Below, in pieces: positions 22,479-32,114 of a DNA stretch of 64,000 nt (positions within the stretch are counted from its first letter, which is position 1; each line of letters opens with the position of its first letter). This DNA is from Desulfatibacillum sp. Its GTDB lineage: Bacteria > Desulfobacterota > Desulfobacteria > Desulfobacterales > Desulfatibacillaceae. The stretch spans positions 1 to 64,000 of the forward strand of contig JAEINP010000007.1 of NCBI GenBank assembly GCA_016342355.1. Reading direction: 5' to 3'. Made by a program: the position numbers and the translations under genes. The notes beneath the pieces were generated by a model that saw only the letters and a list, made by a program, of their open reading frames with translations, was not told the origin of the DNA and ran no database searches.

Positions 22479-23120
22479 CTATCGGCCGAGGATATCCTCC
22501 ATTTCCAAAAGCGAGTGGATATGAACATCCGCTTTAAGGGCAGGGTTGGCTACAGCCACAAACCGAACACCGGCAGTAAGCGCAGCCTGTTCATCCACCA
22601 CCGAGTCCCCGAGATAAGCCAACTGGTCCCCTGGCAAGGAAAATTCCTCCATGATTTTGTACAATTGCTCCGGGTCGGGCTTGGGGATCTTAACGTCCCG
22701 GGAGGTCACCACAAGGTCAAAAAGGCCGGTGAGCCCATGCTCTGCGATGACTGCATTCATGGTATCGGTCCTGTTTGTGGATATTGCCAGACGAAAATTC
22801 GGCTTGAGCCACGTCAGGAGATGCATGAGATAGGGTTCCATGCGCATCAGTCGCACAAAGGGGAAGTAGGTCATTCTCTTGGCAACGTCCAGTGCTTCCT
22901 CAAGTCTGGGGCCCTGGCCCAAAAGGTGTTCCAGGGTTTCCAGCGCCGTGTGCATGTGTGCGTATGCGAACTCCTGGGTATTCATTGGAGGTCTTCCAAA
23001 ATGGTCCAGAATCGCGTTATAATATCGGCGATTTGCCTCTGCGGAATCGAACATGACTCCATCGCAGTCAAATATGACTGCCTTTATGTTCTCCCCTAAG
23101 GGGTTGTTATTCTTCTCCAA
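22479..23120 (-). CDS. HAD-family phosphatase (Gph/PGP-like)
   Basis: A 213-residue HAD hydrolase. Motif I is IFDCDGVMFD, motif II is AISTNRT, and motifs III/IV are KPDPEQLYK and YLGDSVVDEQAA. A helical C1 cap lies between I and II. Typical substrates are phosphoglycolate or other small phosphomonoesters. The start is uncertain: TTG at 23120 lies inside the upstream selenoprotein gene (14-bp overlap). A strong AGGGGAG lies after it near 23096 but is followed only by ATA. Co-transcription with the DUF1573 genes is likely. Confidence 0.85.
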   Translation of the reverse strand: MEKNNNPLGENIKAVIFDCDGVMFDSAEANRRYYNAILDHFGRPPMNTQEFAYAHMHTALETLEHLLGQGPRLEEALDVAKRMTYFPFVRLMRMEPYLMHLLTWLKPNFRLAISTNRTDTMNAVIAEHGLTGLFDLVVTSRDVKIPKPDPEQLYKIMEEFSLPGDQLAYLGDSVVDEQAALTAGVRFVAVANPALKADVHIHSLLEMEDILGR

Positions 23121-23892
23121 GTTGGTTATCGTCCTTGGGCGGCAGCCGTTTGATGCGGGTTGGCTTTTGTTCCGTGAAATTGGCGTACACCCTCACCTCC
23201 AGCCTGGGCTTAATTTTGCTATCTGTGTTCAGATATACGGTTCCGGCATAGCGGCCCGTGGGTTCGGGATCTGTCACAGTAAGAATCCATCCATGTTCCT
23301 TGCCATTTTTGAATTCTTCCAACGTATGGGAGAATTTGGCGCTGGCAGTTGCCGACGTTCTGATGATTTTAAACGGATAAGCCTCAGAGGGAGTGATTCT
23401 CACCGAGCCTGTAGCCTCTCCCTCTTTGCCATCCTTTGATAAATAAATGGTGGTGGGCGCAATGGAGGCAAAACTCGCCACTGGCCCTGAAATACTCAAC
23501 TCGATCTCCGGATTGTTCGGATCATTGGTGACGACTCGGACACTCTTGTGCAATGTCCTTCCGCCATACCCCTTGGTATTGACTCTGATTTCCACGTTTC
23601 CTTCCCCGCCCGGAGAAGTGCGCCTCGTATACGAGGTAGCCGTGCATCCTCAAGAGGTTTTGATCTGTTTGATTTCCAGATCGTGGGCCCCTGTATTTTT
23701 AAAAGTGTATTGGTGTGTTACAAGGTCACCATCCATGACGCTTTCAAATGCAAAATTGGTGGCGTCAAACACTATGGTGGGCAAGCCCTCCCGGGGATTT
23801 GATATATCCCCTGCCATGGCCGGAGCCATGCATACCGACAAAAGCAACGCTCCACTAAAAAGCACCCGGGTCAAAACACTTTTTACTTCCAT
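23107..23892 (-). CDS. DUF1573 exported selenoprotein, copy 1
   Basis: A 261-residue product if TGA at 23650-23652 is read as selenocysteine (U81). A Sec signal peptide ends AMAG (about residues 1-28). The DUF1573 Ig-like domain follows: HQYTFKNTGAHDLEIKQIK, then TS-U-GCT, where the family has a conserved SCGCT motif. The frame stays open for 180 codons after the TGA and keeps DUF1573 sequence (GGEGNVEIRVNTKGYGGRTLHK, VVTNDPNNPEI). A C-terminal domain contains FSHTLEEFKNGKEHGW. The ATG at 23892 has GGAGG ahead of it. The paralogue upstream has TGA at the same codon. A hairpin lies at 23623-23636, 13 nt past the TGA. Function unknown; periplasmic redox is plausible. Confidence 0.85.
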
Positions 23893-23952
23893 CCTTTTGG
23901 CCTCCAAAAATCAGCTCCGCAATAAACAAATACCCATTGCACAACACGGGCC

Positions 23953-23981
23953 ACTGTAGGAGCAACGGTCCTGCTTGTCAA
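23953..23981 (-). promoter_or_regulatory. Promoter of DUF1573 selenoprotein copy 1
   Basis: On the minus strand TTGACA, a 17-bp spacer, then TACAGT. The spacer resembles that of the copy 2 promoter (shared AAG..GGAC..TTGCTC). Hence each paralogue has its own promoter and the duplication included upstream DNA. Confidence 0.7.
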
Positions 23982-24095
23982 CCCGGCGCCACTGGCAGGC
24001 GGATTGCCCACTGAAGGCGCAAGAGACATAAGTGGGGCCGGAGCAGCTTTTTATTATTGGAGGCGCAAAATTCCACGCAAGCATTCTTCCAAATG

Positions 24096-24878
24096 TCACT
24101 TCTCGCCTTTTGGCGGCATCTGGCTGACTTGGGTGGTTGGCCTCTTTTTTGTAAAATTGCCGTACACCTTCACTTCCAGGCTGGACTTTTCCTTGCTGTC
24201 TGTGTGGAGGTACACGACTCCGGAATAGCGGCCTTTGGGGTCCTGATCTTTGACGGTAAGGCGCCACCCGGTTTTATCCCCTTCCTGGAATTCTTCCAGG
24301 GTATGGGTGAATGCAGCATTGGCTGTAGCTGAAGTCCTTATGATCTTAAATGGATAAGCCTCAACCGGCATTATGGTGGCGGTACCTGAAATTTCCTTTC
24401 CCTCATCACCCCGCAACTGGATAACAGCCGGTTTGATGACAGCAAAATATTTCACCGGCCCGGATATTTCCAATTTCACTTCCGGGTTATTGGGATCATT
24501 GGTGATGACCGTGGCGGTTTTGTGCAAAGTTCTGCCGCCGTATCCGTTGGTGTTAACCCTGATTTCCACTTTTCCTTCCCCACCCGGGGAAGTGCTACTC
24601 GTATAAGAAGTAGCAGTGCATCCTCAAGCGGTTTTGACCTGTTTTATCTCCAGATCCTTGGTTCCGGTATTCTTGAAGGTGTATTGGTGGGTGACCAAGT
24701 CGCTTTCCAAAACCGAACCAAACTCGAATTTTGTGGCATCAAAGACTATGGTCGGCCCCTCCTCCAGGGGGTCCTGGATGGCATCATTCGTTTCCTGGGC
24801 CATTACCGGGGCCATACAAACAAAAAACATAACAACCGCGCAAATAAAGAGCTTCGTGGCAATACTGGTGATTTTCAT
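24096..24878 (-). CDS. DUF1573 exported selenoprotein, copy 2
   Basis: A 260-residue product with selenocysteine at the TGA of 24624-24626 (U85). The signal peptide ends PVMAQ (about residue 28). The DUF1573 domain includes HQYTFKNTGTKDLEIKQVK then TA-U-GCT, replacing the first Cys of the family SCGCT motif. The frame continues for 175 codons with GGEGKVEIRVNTNGYGGRTL and a C-terminal FTHTLEEFQEGDKTGW. It is clearly diverged from copy 1, yet both keep the UGA and an intact downstream frame. GGGAG precedes the ATG at 24878. A GCTACT/AGTAGC hairpin (24594-24614) lies 9 nt after the UGA. The C-terminus ends PPKGEK. Cellular role unknown. Confidence 0.85.
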
Positions 24879-24965: not shown

Positions 24966-25066
24966 CCTGCCAGAGGGCTGGTTAAATTAGAAAACAACCT
25001 TTGCCAGGACACAAAAAAATGGTACAAAGGGCTATGTCAAACAACATAGGACAGGGGCCCTTGGTC

Positions 25067-25588
25067 ATGATTAAATTTCCCACCAATACAAAAACTTGTA
25101 TTTTTACATGGATGGCAATGACGCTTTTGATCTTGCCTGGGTGCTCGTCTTCTCCCACGCGATACATGCCGCCGGCCGGTCCCGGCCCTCAGACAGTCTA
25201 CATTATGGAACGGGATTATAAAACCACCTGGAATGCCCTGATCCGGGCGCTGGATCAAATGCCTGACGCTGATTTGTGGTACAAGTCAATCGAAGAAGGT
25301 AAAATTACCCTAAGGGATACGGAGGTCCCGGTTTACGGGAACTGTCTTTGCGGGACAGTGGGCGACAACGACCTGCGGGGATTGGCTGTGAGGGCAACAT
25401 CCATTGATGTTGGCAAGGAAGCGCCCCAACTCACTCGCATCAGAATCCACTGTACCTATACTCTACCCTTTTCCTGGCCTAATGTTTATGGCCGTTCCTC
25501 CATGCAGCAGGACATAGAGTGCATTTCCACCGGGCGTTTTGAACAGGGTTTGTTCGAAAGGGCTTCCAGATTCCTTTTTCCTCAATAA
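25067..25588 (+). CDS. Putative lipoprotein of unknown function
   Basis: A 173-residue protein from the ATG at 25067, which gives a 26-residue lipoprotein signal ending LLILPGC. Earlier ATGs (25019, 25034) would give an over-long leader. The mature part has a Pro/Gly-rich linker and a compact domain (YKTTWNALIRALDQMPDADL, IRIHCTYTLPFSWP) that is not recognised with certainty. Similar small domains occur in outer-membrane lipoproteins. Divergent from the selenoprotein genes and convergent with the TPR/SLH lipoprotein. Confidence 0.65.
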   Translation: MIKFPTNTKTCIFTWMAMTLLILPGCSSSPTRYMPPAGPGPQTVYIMERDYKTTWNALIRALDQMPDADLWYKSIEEGKITLRDTEVPVYGNCLCGTVGDNDLRGLAVRATSIDVGKEAPQLTRIRIHCTYTLPFSWPNVYGRSSMQQDIECISTGRFEQGLFERASRFLFPQ

Positions 25589-27786: not shown

Positions 27787-29415
27787 TTAGTGATTGACGT
27801 CCAGGGCGTAGTCCAGAATCTCCATGATGGCGCCCTTATAATAATAGCTCAAAATATTCTGGTATGTTTTGTTTTCAAGTGCCATATTCCTGGCTCCCCA
27901 TTGACTCATGCCTACTCCGTGACCATATCCTGTTCCCTTGAAAAGATAGACATCGTCCTTGTTTGTGATGGCAAACCGTGTGCTACGAACCCTTGCAGGA
28001 TCCATTTTCAGGCGAAAACTATTACTGTTTAAGGAAAGTGCGCCGGAATCGGACATGATGCGTACGGTACGGACTCTGCCTGAGGTGGTGGCATCCAGCA
28101 GCCTCAGGCCGGTAACCTTGCCCACATCCAAACCCGCGTTCAGCATGGCCTGCTGGATTTCCGCTGCTTTAAGGGAACATTCCCAACGAGTGCCGGGAGA
28201 TTTGGAGCTAAACGGATCCGCGCCCCCTTTAAGGTAAGGCATATCAGCCACCCACACGTTGCCTGCGTCCTCGGTATACCCTCCGCTGTTGGAGTGATAA
28301 TAAGTAAGAGCCAGCTTGCCGTCATGGGTCAGCACCTGGCCACGGGTATCATCCACAGCCCGGATGGCCTTGCTGAATGTTTCGTCATAGCCTCCGTACA
28401 CTTGGGAAGCGGTGGTGGCTGTAAGGTCAAAGGGTTCGTTAAGCCTTTTTTCCTTAAGGTACAGGGCATAACTCCTGGCGGCCACAGCCTGGGCCTTGAG
28501 TGCTTCCTCAGGCCAGCCTGACGGCATTTCCCGTGGAACCACCCCATACAAATAAGTTTCCACCCCAACCCTGTTGATGACGTCAATCCCGCCGGGAGCA
28601 ACATATAAAATGAGCAATCCCTTGTACTTGGCTTTTCCTGCAGTAATGGTTTGGCCCCGGGAAAGAAGCTCACAACGTTCTGTTTCCAGATCTCTCCCGT
28701 TTACCCACAGCCTGCCGCCTTTGATGGAAAAAATTCCCTGGTTGGCTTCGAACAGGATTTGCCCGGTCACTGGGTCCGTACACTGAAACCCGGGATCACC
28801 CTTTACAGGCAGGCTTTCAACGTCAGATCGGATGAGTATGCGCAGAGTAGTGTCTCCCGTATACCGGGTGGGCGAACTCGGCTGAATCCTGGCTTCTAAC
28901 AAGCAGGTTTCCGCGTTCCGTTCCCAAACCCGCGCCATGAGGGCATGGCGACCGCCCGGATGTTTTCCCAGGTATTGTTTGAAAACCTGCCTGGCGTCCT
29001 CATAATCCCCATTTTGAAACAAAACCATGCCCTTGTTAAACAAACTTTCCCCGGCTGTCAGGGTACGGGGATAGGAAGCCAGAACCCTGTCAAAGTAACG
29101 GATGGAGCCTTCCTTCTGGTCCAGGTACAGGCCATAGATAGTCCCCATAAAAAACAGGGCCTTTGCCCTGTCTTCCGGCATGGAGGCAAAGGTGGCCACT
29201 TCCTGGTATTCAGACAGGGATTCCAGGTACTGCCCCTGGTTTATGAGGGTGGCAGCCCTTCCAAACCCCAATTCCGCCTCATATACCGCAATGGCTTTGG
29301 GAATGGGAACTGCCAAGAATAAAGCGATGGCCATGACGGCAACTGTCAGCGATTTTCTCCCCGGGCGGCGGGATGGATACGGATTCCAATTTGGTCTGCT
29401 ACCTTGAAAAAACAC
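27787..29415 (-). CDS. SpoIID/LytB-domain protein with N-terminal TPRs
   Basis: A 542-residue exported protein. A basic N-terminus and hydrophobic signal (TVAVMAIALFLAVPI) precede TPR repeats to about residue 170 and a SpoIID domain (about 210-520). Hallmarks are YLYGVVPREMPSGWPEEALKAQAVAARSYAL, split here as VVPREMPSGWP and EALKAQAVAARSY, then YGGYD and YGHGVGMSQWGA. SpoIID proteins are lytic transglycosylases on denuded peptidoglycan. The GTG start at 29415 has CCGGAG ahead. It is 41 bp downstream of the cyclase gene. Confidence 0.85.
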   Translation of the reverse strand: MFFQGSRPNWNPYPSRRPGRKSLTVAVMAIALFLAVPIPKAIAVYEAELGFGRAATLINQGQYLESLSEYQEVATFASMPEDRAKALFFMGTIYGLYLDQKEGSIRYFDRVLASYPRTLTAGESLFNKGMVLFQNGDYEDARQVFKQYLGKHPGGRHALMARVWERNAETCLLEARIQPSSPTRYTGDTTLRILIRSDVESLPVKGDPGFQCTDPVTGQILFEANQGIFSIKGGRLWVNGRDLETERCELLSRGQTITAGKAKYKGLLILYVAPGGIDVINRVGVETYLYGVVPREMPSGWPEEALKAQAVAARSYALYLKEKRLNEPFDLTATTASQVYGGYDETFSKAIRAVDDTRGQVLTHDGKLALTYYHSNSGGYTEDAGNVWVADMPYLKGGADPFSSKSPGTRWECSLKAAEIQQAMLNAGLDVGKVTGLRLLDATTSGRVRTVRIMSDSGALSLNSNSFRLKMDPARVRSTRFAITNKDDVYLFKGTGYGHGVGMSQWGARNMALENKTYQNILSYYYKGAIMEILDYALDVNH

Positions 29416-29456: not shown

Positions 29457-31712
29457 CTATTTACTGGTCATGGTATATGCCCCGTTCCATTTTTCCGGGG
29501 GCGGGGTTTTGTGGTACTCGACGCACCGTTTTTTCATAGTGAGGCTGGGGGGGTCCCCCGGATCAAAAGCCAGGGCCTTATCAAAATGCCCCACCGCTTC
29601 TTTCCATTGGCTCTGCCGATAGGCGGCCAAGCCTTGTGCATAATGCCCCACCAATTGTTCTTTATGACTATCCACCTCGCCTTTAAGGCCTATGATCTCA
29701 TAGATGACAATAGGCTCGGCTTTGCCCACCACGTTGACGGCATCCAGTTCCCGGACCGCAATATAGTCGCTGCATTGGTCGTATGTGGCCTGGCTTATCA
29801 TGGTGTAGGTGCCGTAGACCTTGTTGACGCCCTCCAGGCGGGCGGCGATATTCACCGTATCGCCCATCATGGTATAGTCAAAACGTTTAGAGGAGCCCAT
29901 GTTACCTACAACTGCCTGCCCCGTGTTCATGCCGATGCGCATATGAAGAATGGGCCTGCCTTCCAGGGTAAAGCGTTCCCGCAATTCCACCAATTTCCTC
30001 TGCATTTCCACGCAGGCGATGGCAGCCCGGGCTGCATGGTCGGGCATTACATTAGGTGCACCGAAAAAGGCGATGATGGCGTCGCCCTCGTATTTGTCAA
30101 CCGTGCCTTCGTTGTCCAGGATGATCTCCGTCATTTCGGACAGAAATATGTTGAGGAGTTCAACCAGGGCCGTAGCCGTCAGCTTTTCGGAAATGGATGT
30201 GAATCCCTGGACGTCGGAAAAGAAGGCTGTGATTTCGCGTTGTTCCCCACCCAGCTTAAGGCTTTCCCTGTTTTTGATGACCTGGTTTACCACACTGGGC
30301 GCCAGATAGGTGGAAAAAGCGTCCTTGATAAAACGCTTGTCCTTTTCTTCCGTAAGGTATTTGTACACGGTCATGGACACATAGGAAACCACAACAATAC
30401 CAATTGGATAGACCATATTCAGAATAGTGCCGCGGGTAAAAAGGAACAGGCACAGGACCATATAGCCTATGGCCAGGATCAGGGCAGTGGCCAGACCGGG
30501 AATCACGGGAAAACGGGGAATGGCCAACCCCAGGATGCTGGCTACCGCTATGATGGCGAAAATATCCAGAATATGAGAGAGATTGGTTCTCCTTATAAAA
30601 TCCCCTCTGAGTATATTGTCCACCACATTGGCGTGGATTTCCAGTCCCGGGTAATTGTCCGCGGTAAAAGGGGTGACCCGCAGGTCAAAAATACCAATGG
30701 CCGTGGCGCCCACCATGACAATTTTATCCCGGAGCTTCTCCTCAGGCACCCTTCCCTCAATAATGTCGGTCACGGAAATGTGCTCAAAGGTTTTGGCAGG
30801 CCCTCGATAATTGATCATAAAACGGCCGGATTCATCCGTGGGAATAAGCATATCCCCCACCTGGACGGAGGATACGCCGAACTCCGCCACGTTCAGGGCC
30901 AAATCCGCTTTCTTATAGGCCGCCAGGGTCTGGAGGGACAAAGGCGCATAAAAGCTCCCTTGGCAATGAATGACCATGTTGAGCCACCGGAAGGTTCCGT
31001 CCGGATCCGGCATCATATTAAAATAACCGGAATGCCGGGTGACCTTGGTGATGTCCGGGATATTGGATTGAGGCATGAAAGCGTTTGGGAGGTCAATTCC
31101 CAGGGCAGCCTGTCCGCTGTATTTGACATGGGAATACTTGGAGCCGATGGTATGGTCGATATGGGCCTGCACCTCTTCCGGGGTGACATTGGAAAGGCCT
31201 TCGGAACTCATCTGGAAAAAATAACCCAGGACAATGGGCATTTGGGCGTTTTTGATAGCCTGGGCCAAAGTCCGGTCATGATCGCCTTGGGCCTTTATGC
31301 GGTCCAGTTCGGAAAACAGCTGATCATCCCCCAGCCCTCTCCCGTGTAAGGCTTGCTCAATCTCTTCCACGGTGTTTGTGGTACTGTTCTGATCCTCTTC
31401 CAAAAAACCGATATCCAGGCCTATCACGGCTGCGCCGGCATCTGACAGCCTGTCGATCATGGAGGCCAATTTATTCCGGGGCCAGATCCATTTTCCCTGC
31501 TCTTCCAGGCTCTTTTCGTCAATGACCGCCAGAACCACCTCAGGGCCGGGACTAATTTTACTCCTAGCGTGGAATCGCAGATCAACGGTTTTTAATTCCA
31601 TAAATTCCAGGAAGTTGGGTTGAATGGCGTAAGCGATCAACCCGATCAAGATGGTAAGCAGGGTGAGTGTCAACGGATTGACCCGGGCAAAACGCTCCAA
31701 GAATTGTTTCAT
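29457..31712 (-). CDS. CHASE2-domain adenylate/guanylate cyclase
   Basis: A 751-residue membrane sensor. TM1 (TLLTILIGLIAYAI) is followed by an extracytoplasmic CHASE2 domain (VDLRFHARS, VVLAVIDEKSLEEQGKWIWPR, FLINYRGP-like MINYRGP). Three TM segments near residues 345-420 lead to a class III cyclase domain (about 470-660). ITAFFSDVQGFTSISE and GDAIIAFFGAPN carry the two metal-binding Asp residues. YTMMGDTVNIAARLEG contributes the purine/transition-state region. A short TPR-like end follows. Its signal is unknown. The ATG at 31712 is chosen because the preceding 77 codons lack any recognisable domain. Confidence 0.9.
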   Translation of the reverse strand: MKQFLERFARVNPLTLTLLTILIGLIAYAIQPNFLEFMELKTVDLRFHARSKISPGPEVVLAVIDEKSLEEQGKWIWPRNKLASMIDRLSDAGAAVIGLDIGFLEEDQNSTTNTVEEIEQALHGRGLGDDQLFSELDRIKAQGDHDRTLAQAIKNAQMPIVLGYFFQMSSEGLSNVTPEEVQAHIDHTIGSKYSHVKYSGQAALGIDLPNAFMPQSNIPDITKVTRHSGYFNMMPDPDGTFRWLNMVIHCQGSFYAPLSLQTLAAYKKADLALNVAEFGVSSVQVGDMLIPTDESGRFMINYRGPAKTFEHISVTDIIEGRVPEEKLRDKIVMVGATAIGIFDLRVTPFTADNYPGLEIHANVVDNILRGDFIRRTNLSHILDIFAIIAVASILGLAIPRFPVIPGLATALILAIGYMVLCLFLFTRGTILNMVYPIGIVVVSYVSMTVYKYLTEEKDKRFIKDAFSTYLAPSVVNQVIKNRESLKLGGEQREITAFFSDVQGFTSISEKLTATALVELLNIFLSEMTEIILDNEGTVDKYEGDAIIAFFGAPNVMPDHAARAAIACVEMQRKLVELRERFTLEGRPILHMRIGMNTGQAVVGNMGSSKRFDYTMMGDTVNIAARLEGVNKVYGTYTMISQATYDQCSDYIAVRELDAVNVVGKAEPIVIYEIIGLKGEVDSHKEQLVGHYAQGLAAYRQSQWKEAVGHFDKALAFDPGDPPSLTMKKRCVEYHKTPPPEKWNGAYTMTSK

Positions 31713-32114
31713 GCTTCCAGCCTCTTTGGGATCGTTTGTTGGATGGATTCTGATATTCCCAATAACAGGGACACACCACGGATTCCGGCCCGGCAGGGTT
31801 GGATAAAACGCTATACAGGATATGTTTGCAGGCAGGCCTTTCCCCGCAATAGGCCCACGATTTAAGTCCCTGATCCGGTTATTCCCTGGTTCCCGAAGCT
31901 TATACCAACTCCCATTGTCCAGGTCAAGCATGGGCAGCGACAATGCATCCCCTCAAAAGGATTGAACATTTGACCCAATCAGAGCGTTTTGATTAGGATA
32001 GGCCAATACATATGTTATGTAGATAAGGTTCCAAGTGACACACACAGGTATGGAAAATCGGAATAAATGCTTTTTTTTGTAACCTTGCTTTCTGAAAAGC
32101 GTTTAGGAAGCAGC
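31713..32114. other. Intergenic region, divergent promoters
   Basis: About 400 bp between the divergent cyclase and ECF sigma genes. No coding frame of known type is seen. A weak plus-strand candidate is TTGACC with an 18-bp spacer and TAGGAT (about 31970-31999). It is surrounded by a short AATCA/TGATT inverted repeat. A region immediately before the sigma gene (TGTAACCTTG) could be an ECF-type element; this is too weak to call. Confidence 0.4.

Follow-up and report, generated by a model that had tools for sequence, protein, structure and literature searches.

Tandem OS_HP2-type (DUF1573) genes of Desulfatibacillum as predicted selenoprotein genes with a selected hairpin after the UGA and a HAD-phosphatase-like neighbour

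The window analysed (the whole stretch of 64,000 nucleotides, positions 1 to 64,000 of contig JAEINP010000007.1, Desulfatibacillum sp., assembly GCA_016342355.1) contained two neighbouring DUF1573 genes with a phosphatase-like gene directly downstream. The features, all on the minus strand, were as follows.

24096-24878, minus strand: predicted DUF1573/OS_HP2 selenoprotein gene, copy 2 (upstream), 260 aa plus stop, Sec at residue 85
24624-24626, minus strand: copy 2 UGA predicted to be read as Sec (U85) in a UGCT motif, with TGC or TGT at the same site in relatives
24593-24615, minus strand: copy 2 SECIS-like hairpin, 8-pair stem and 7-nt loop CTTATAC (z -5.3, p 0.005 against synonymous shuffles)
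23107-23892, minus strand: predicted DUF1573/OS_HP2 selenoprotein gene, copy 1 (downstream), 261 aa, stop TAA, Sec at residue 81
23650-23652, minus strand: copy 1 UGA predicted to be read as Sec (U81) in a UGCT motif
23620-23640, minus strand: copy 1 SECIS-like hairpin, 5-pair upper stem, two lower pairs and loop TATA (z -2.3, p 0.05)
22479-23120, minus strand: HAD-family phosphatase-like gene, predicted TTG start, 14-base overlap with the end of copy 1

The sequence-only reading had described one in-frame TGA in each gene at the first Cys of the CGC motif, with frames staying open for 175-180 codons downstream, and the frames were found as described, with 180 (copy 1) and 175 (copy 2) open codons counted beyond U. 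The motif context was (A/S)UGCT in both copies, which share 62% identity, and a second TGA in copy 2 (24098-24096) is its ordinary stop. Both proteins matched PF07610 (DUF1573; 72.2 and 73.2 bits, gathering score 26.1) and were the only DUF1573 matches in the whole genome. Translation with table 11 interrupts both genes at the motif TGA. A scan of the window for TGA-split frames gave 21 rows, comprising the two motif TGAs, another TGA in the same stretch and 18 others. An Rfam scan of the window gave no match at gathering scores. Nearby, a 195-aa frame at 25001-25588 (plus strand) lies opposite to the operon and matched nothing in Pfam or NCBIfam at the thresholds applied, and a CHASE2 and guanylate/adenylate cyclase protein with TPR (29457-31943, minus strand) is adjoined by a SpoIID/LytB-domain TPR protein (27787-29415).

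The two proteins belong to a family that is already catalogued, and the pair is not new as a kind. Both scored above the curated cut-off of 100 for NF041425 (OS_HP2 (seleno)protein; 122.5 and 123.3 bits), and the UxC/UGC motif of OS_HP2 was present as U81-G-C and U85-G-C. OS_HP2 is listed with pfam07610 and a UxC motif in a 2008 selenoproteome paper (PMC2398784), a DUF1573 protein with UGC (CAB1076174.1) appears in a 2022 table that credits Zhang and Gladyshev 2007 (PMC9312934), and another (MDJ0815992.1) appears in a 2026 review (PMC13188914). The suggestion that such proteins are not commonly annotated was thus right only in part, as a dedicated NCBIfam model and published catalogues exist. 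The window proteins share the U-G-C motif of the catalogue entries, to which they were likened by model score and listing, and differ in forming a tandem Sec-Sec pair, in the HAD gene downstream and in hairpin loops mostly lacking the expected G. The catalogue passages that list the family make no mention of a downstream HAD gene, loops without G, a His at -21 or longer Sec forms, and nothing on OS_HP2 was found among the literature matches listed for Desulfobacterota selenoproteins or CXC-selenocysteine redox.

Longer Sec-containing DUF1573 proteins were also found at three loci (L124, L135, L141), with frames of 379-419 aa and the same U-G-C motif. Two of them, from other families of the phylum, scored below the NF041425 cut-off (L135, 89.5 bits; L141, 92.7 bits) and may be missed by annotation. 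A redox fusion partner was considered for the three and rejected, the extra length looking by eye like further Ig-like repeats; an NCBIfam scan of L135 and L141 gave no other domain above cut-off. A plasmid search returned three weak Bacteroidota hits, two of the three records being annotated as DUF1573.

At 5.26 Mb in 142 contigs (completeness 100), the assembly encodes the machinery for selenocysteine. A tRNA-Sec was detected at 76 bits (gathering score 47), and selA (614 bits), selB (392 bits) and selD (357 bits) were each above the NCBIfam cut-off, so that all four components that the sequence-only reading had proposed to look for were recovered at curated thresholds. Among 14 control genomes the same models were above cut-off for tRNA-Sec in five, selA in one, selB in two and selD in two. 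Judged by its gene content, the cell can make selenocysteine. The selD gene (L017, 1501-2424, contig C40) carries an in-frame TGA in the context RSSG-U-AAK and is thus itself a predicted selenoprotein gene, the TGA being followed by a strong hairpin whose loop is GGA. Three formate-dehydrogenase-type matches (L145, L146, L150; two above cut-off, one below) carried one in-frame TGA each, and in the L146 match U-H-A-P is followed by a hairpin with the loop GGTCT.

The motif codon was compared across 114 distinct DUF1573 sites taken from loci L023-L144. It was TGA in 68 sites, TGC in 39 and TGT in seven, with TAA or TAG in none, and homologues with Cys at the U position, for which the sequence-only reading had proposed a search, were thus present. 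In the 68 sites the only stop inside the domain match was the TGA in place of the first CGC Cys, and the other 46 were stop-free; this 68:46 ratio is not a frequency because loci were selected partly by stop content (L055-L073 for absent TGA or odd stop counts). When every stop was read through, the set of 114 sites was recovered unchanged, with the motif TGA as the sole stop inside the domain, and the second Cys of the motif was Cys in every site. With copy 2 as query, a relative was found in 261 of 291 genomes of the class; among the rows listed 16 lacked TGA (13 stop-free, three with only TAA or TAG, in each case outside the domain) and the remainder had at least one TGA, the position of which can be placed only from fetched loci. 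Phylum-wide, PF07610 matched in 188 of 395 genomes, and the 150 matches listed out of a larger number, counted by eye, split into 61 that have one TGA and 89 that lack it, TAA and TAG being absent from all of them.

The 114 domains were placed in a tree by a quick method on 105 columns, which left 53 of its 111 inner branches open. This tree needs 13 changes between Sec and Cys, at least four of them on supported branches, with gain and loss not distinguishable. The tandem pair of D. alkenivorans has one TGA copy (UGC) and one TGC copy (CGC), and falls with the window pair in one supported clade, its inner forks open, among mostly Sec-bearing rows. Because the two pairs share this clade and these neighbours, duplication after Sec was present is the simpler reading, and independent acquisition of the TGA by the two copies is improbable. 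A Sec copy and a Cys copy occur together in one locus in two genera (L096, offsets 2830 and 4157 on the minus strand; L023, offsets 3243 and 4197).

To test for an RNA hairpin after the motif codon, each sequence was folded over 27 bases, at offsets 9-35 relative to the codon, and its energy was set against that of 200 shuffles among synonymous codons. In the 68 Sec genes the mean was -8.7 kcal/mol against -3.2 expected, with a median z of -2.37 and p < 0.05 in 44, the other 24 hairpins being individually non-significant. In the 46 Cys genes the mean was -3.7 against -2.8 kcal/mol expected, with a median z of -0.28 and p < 0.05 in only one. The two distributions of z differed strongly (Mann-Whitney p 1.9e-14), with the proviso that the shuffle, pairing and Fisher counts ignore relatedness and that the Cys set takes in more distant rows. 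Five stem pairs were paired in register in 281 of 340 cells of the Sec genes (83%), falling to 103-165 of 340 (30-49%) when slid by 1-3, compared to 93 of 230 in register and 62-78 slid in the Cys genes. Exchange between C-G and T-A was seen at stem pairs 16-29 and 17-28 (Fisher about 5e-6 each). Taken as a group, the Sec genes thus carry a hairpin after the TGA that, on comparative sequence evidence, is under selection, with no such signal in the Cys relatives.

The published rule for bacterial SECIS elements places a G within the first two loop positions, although some bacterial selenoprotein genes depart from that model (PMC13188914). RNAfold put a G at one of these positions in 10 of the 68 Sec genes, some of the loops belonging to a structure other than the conserved hairpin, and in the fixed register 15 genes had G as their first loop base; the G, distance and energy rules were jointly satisfied in two. 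Copy 2 lacks the loop G, and in copy 1 its presence varies with the way the loop is drawn.

Both window genes are almost certainly selenoprotein genes, as judged from codon, conservation, hairpin and machinery, and not pseudogenes, because the site holds only TGA, TGC or TGT among relatives, the Sec machinery is present and the hairpin is selected in Sec genes. The status proposed by the sequence-only reading is supported on each of these grounds, including the Cys found at the same site in relatives. SelB and tRNA-Sec would decode the UGA as selenocysteine, with the hairpin, starting about 8-12 bases past the codon, as guide. The two genes would have arisen by within-genus tandem duplication of an OS_HP2-type (DUF1573) selenoprotein gene.

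The products are predicted to carry a signal-peptide-like N-terminus (hydrophobic in both copies and ending, read by eye, in an A-x-A-like site) followed by two Ig/ASH-like domains. An AlphaFold2 model, built on four sequences, gave two strand-rich domains with a mean pLDDT of 83, rising to 91 in the block around U85. Of the predicted strands 61-70, 76-83 and 87-92, the latter two flank U85-G-C87, so that Sec and the Cys two residues on would fall between a pair of strands in the first domain. Structure comparison placed this domain near Ig/ASH/PapD-like domains, the matches including 2qsv (Z 13.2, rmsd 2.7, 105 aligned), Vibrio VesB (Z 12.1) and VesC (12.0) and the HYDIN domain 2e6j (10.3), and PF22544 (HYDIN/VesB-like Ig) matched both copies (44.5 and 52.6 bits, cut-off 25.5). 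The likeness to 2qsv (a Porphyromonas gingivalis protein of unknown function), VesB and HYDIN is one of fold only. Sequence searches of solved structures found nothing credible as a relative (best E 0.17), and none was found for one Cys-type domain. At 21 residues ahead of the Sec or Cys, a His, located on the strand that precedes the motif strand in the AlphaFold2 model, was present in 65 of 68 Sec rows and 32 of 46 Cys rows. Over the part examined, a further Cys was absent from 62 of the 68 Sec proteins and from 39 of the 46 with Cys in the motif.

We infer Sec insertion in the cell, export and a selenol/thiol redox role in the periplasm, in which the Sec would attack, the Cys would resolve and a Se-S bond would form within U-G-C. 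A redox function does not follow from the fold, because the fold is Ig-like and not thioredoxin-like, and the main rival is that both proteins are selenoproteins in which the role of U-G-C, possibly together with the conserved His, is to hold a metal ion or ligand in the periplasm and not to perform redox turnover. We regard such a site as possible, if clearly the less probable option. It is in keeping with the Ig/ASH-like fold, with the structure matches listed, among which there was no known oxidoreductase, with U-G-C being the only Sec/Cys pair in most members and with the His at -21, which the preceding predicted strand may bring near the Sec. Exchange of Sec and Cys beside an invariant second Cys, however, fits a nucleophile and a resolving Cys at least equally well, and the His may also activate a selenol. 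The reading of the locus as tandem OS_HP2 selenoproteins, decoded by SelB with the hairpin and acting as periplasmic selenol/thiol redox proteins through a selenenylsulfide, is as a whole probable.

The gene downstream of the pair encodes a protein that matched Pfam HAD_2 (88.6 bits, cut-off 23.8). Among the 25 NCBIfam rows shown for it, only the broad HAD-IA model was above cut-off, with enzyme-specific models far from reached. We compared 43 neighbourhoods (the window slice, L023 and L074-L114, L074 being without a gene of the DUF1573 cluster). One HAD cluster was represented in 33 of them, on the same strand and downstream in all 33, with the stop-to-stop frames of the DUF1573 and HAD genes overlapping or no more than 6 bases apart in 28, an upper bound because such frames reach past true starts. 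With a profile made from those 33 members, a HAD gene starting within 1.6 kb downstream was sought for each site. It was found for 57 of 68 Sec sites (10 without, one too short) compared to four of 46 Cys sites, of which 28 had none and 14 lay in stretches too short for a decision, and each of two tandem pairs had one common HAD gene. The Cys-type DUF1573 proteins of the phylum share the domain, with a CGC motif, and differ in having no Sec, no group hairpin signal and the HAD neighbour in those four sites. The association of Sec and HAD genes, itself evident from sequence, is no proof of a functional link because the Sec and Cys groups differ in ancestry. The operon section of PMC13188914 leaves a DUF1573-HAD gene pair unmentioned. 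In one family (L076, L107, L108, L109) a Sec DUF1573 gene lies near what look by eye like type II secretion genes, away from HAD.

A bolder version of our reading, in which OS_HP2 has a bacterial SECIS class of its own, with loops that usually lack a leading G and often read UUAUAC, set against the G-type loops of the selD and formate dehydrogenase hairpins of the same cell, and its readthrough is coupled by way of abutting frames to a dedicated HAD phosphatase as an overlooked module widespread in the phylum, we consider unlikely. Still more doubtful is that the UGA serves chiefly as a selenium-dependent switch, readthrough feeding ribosomes to the overlapping HAD gene and making the phosphatase selenium-responsive; the constant order and close spacing described above and the predicted TTG start of the window HAD gene, 14 bases inside copy 1, would suit it, but close spacing is usual in bacterial operons and the HAD gene downstream of four Cys sites argues that Sec is not required for it. 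That the TGA codons are nonsense changes in two decaying pseudogenes, as the break of both genes under table 11 might suggest, is hardly credible and was rejected, given the selection on the hairpin, the TGA at an identical position in 68 related sites with TAA or TAG in none and no other stop in the domain, the downstream frames kept and the Sec machinery present.

The analysis rescues two genes that ordinary reading calls broken, and it adds comparative evidence (selection on the hairpin, exchange of Sec and Cys, a conserved His) for a family with few catalogued examples. The loci L096 and L023 offer natural Sec/Cys pairs for comparison, and the HAD neighbour provides a concrete lead to the role of OS_HP2, a probably periplasmic selenoprotein.
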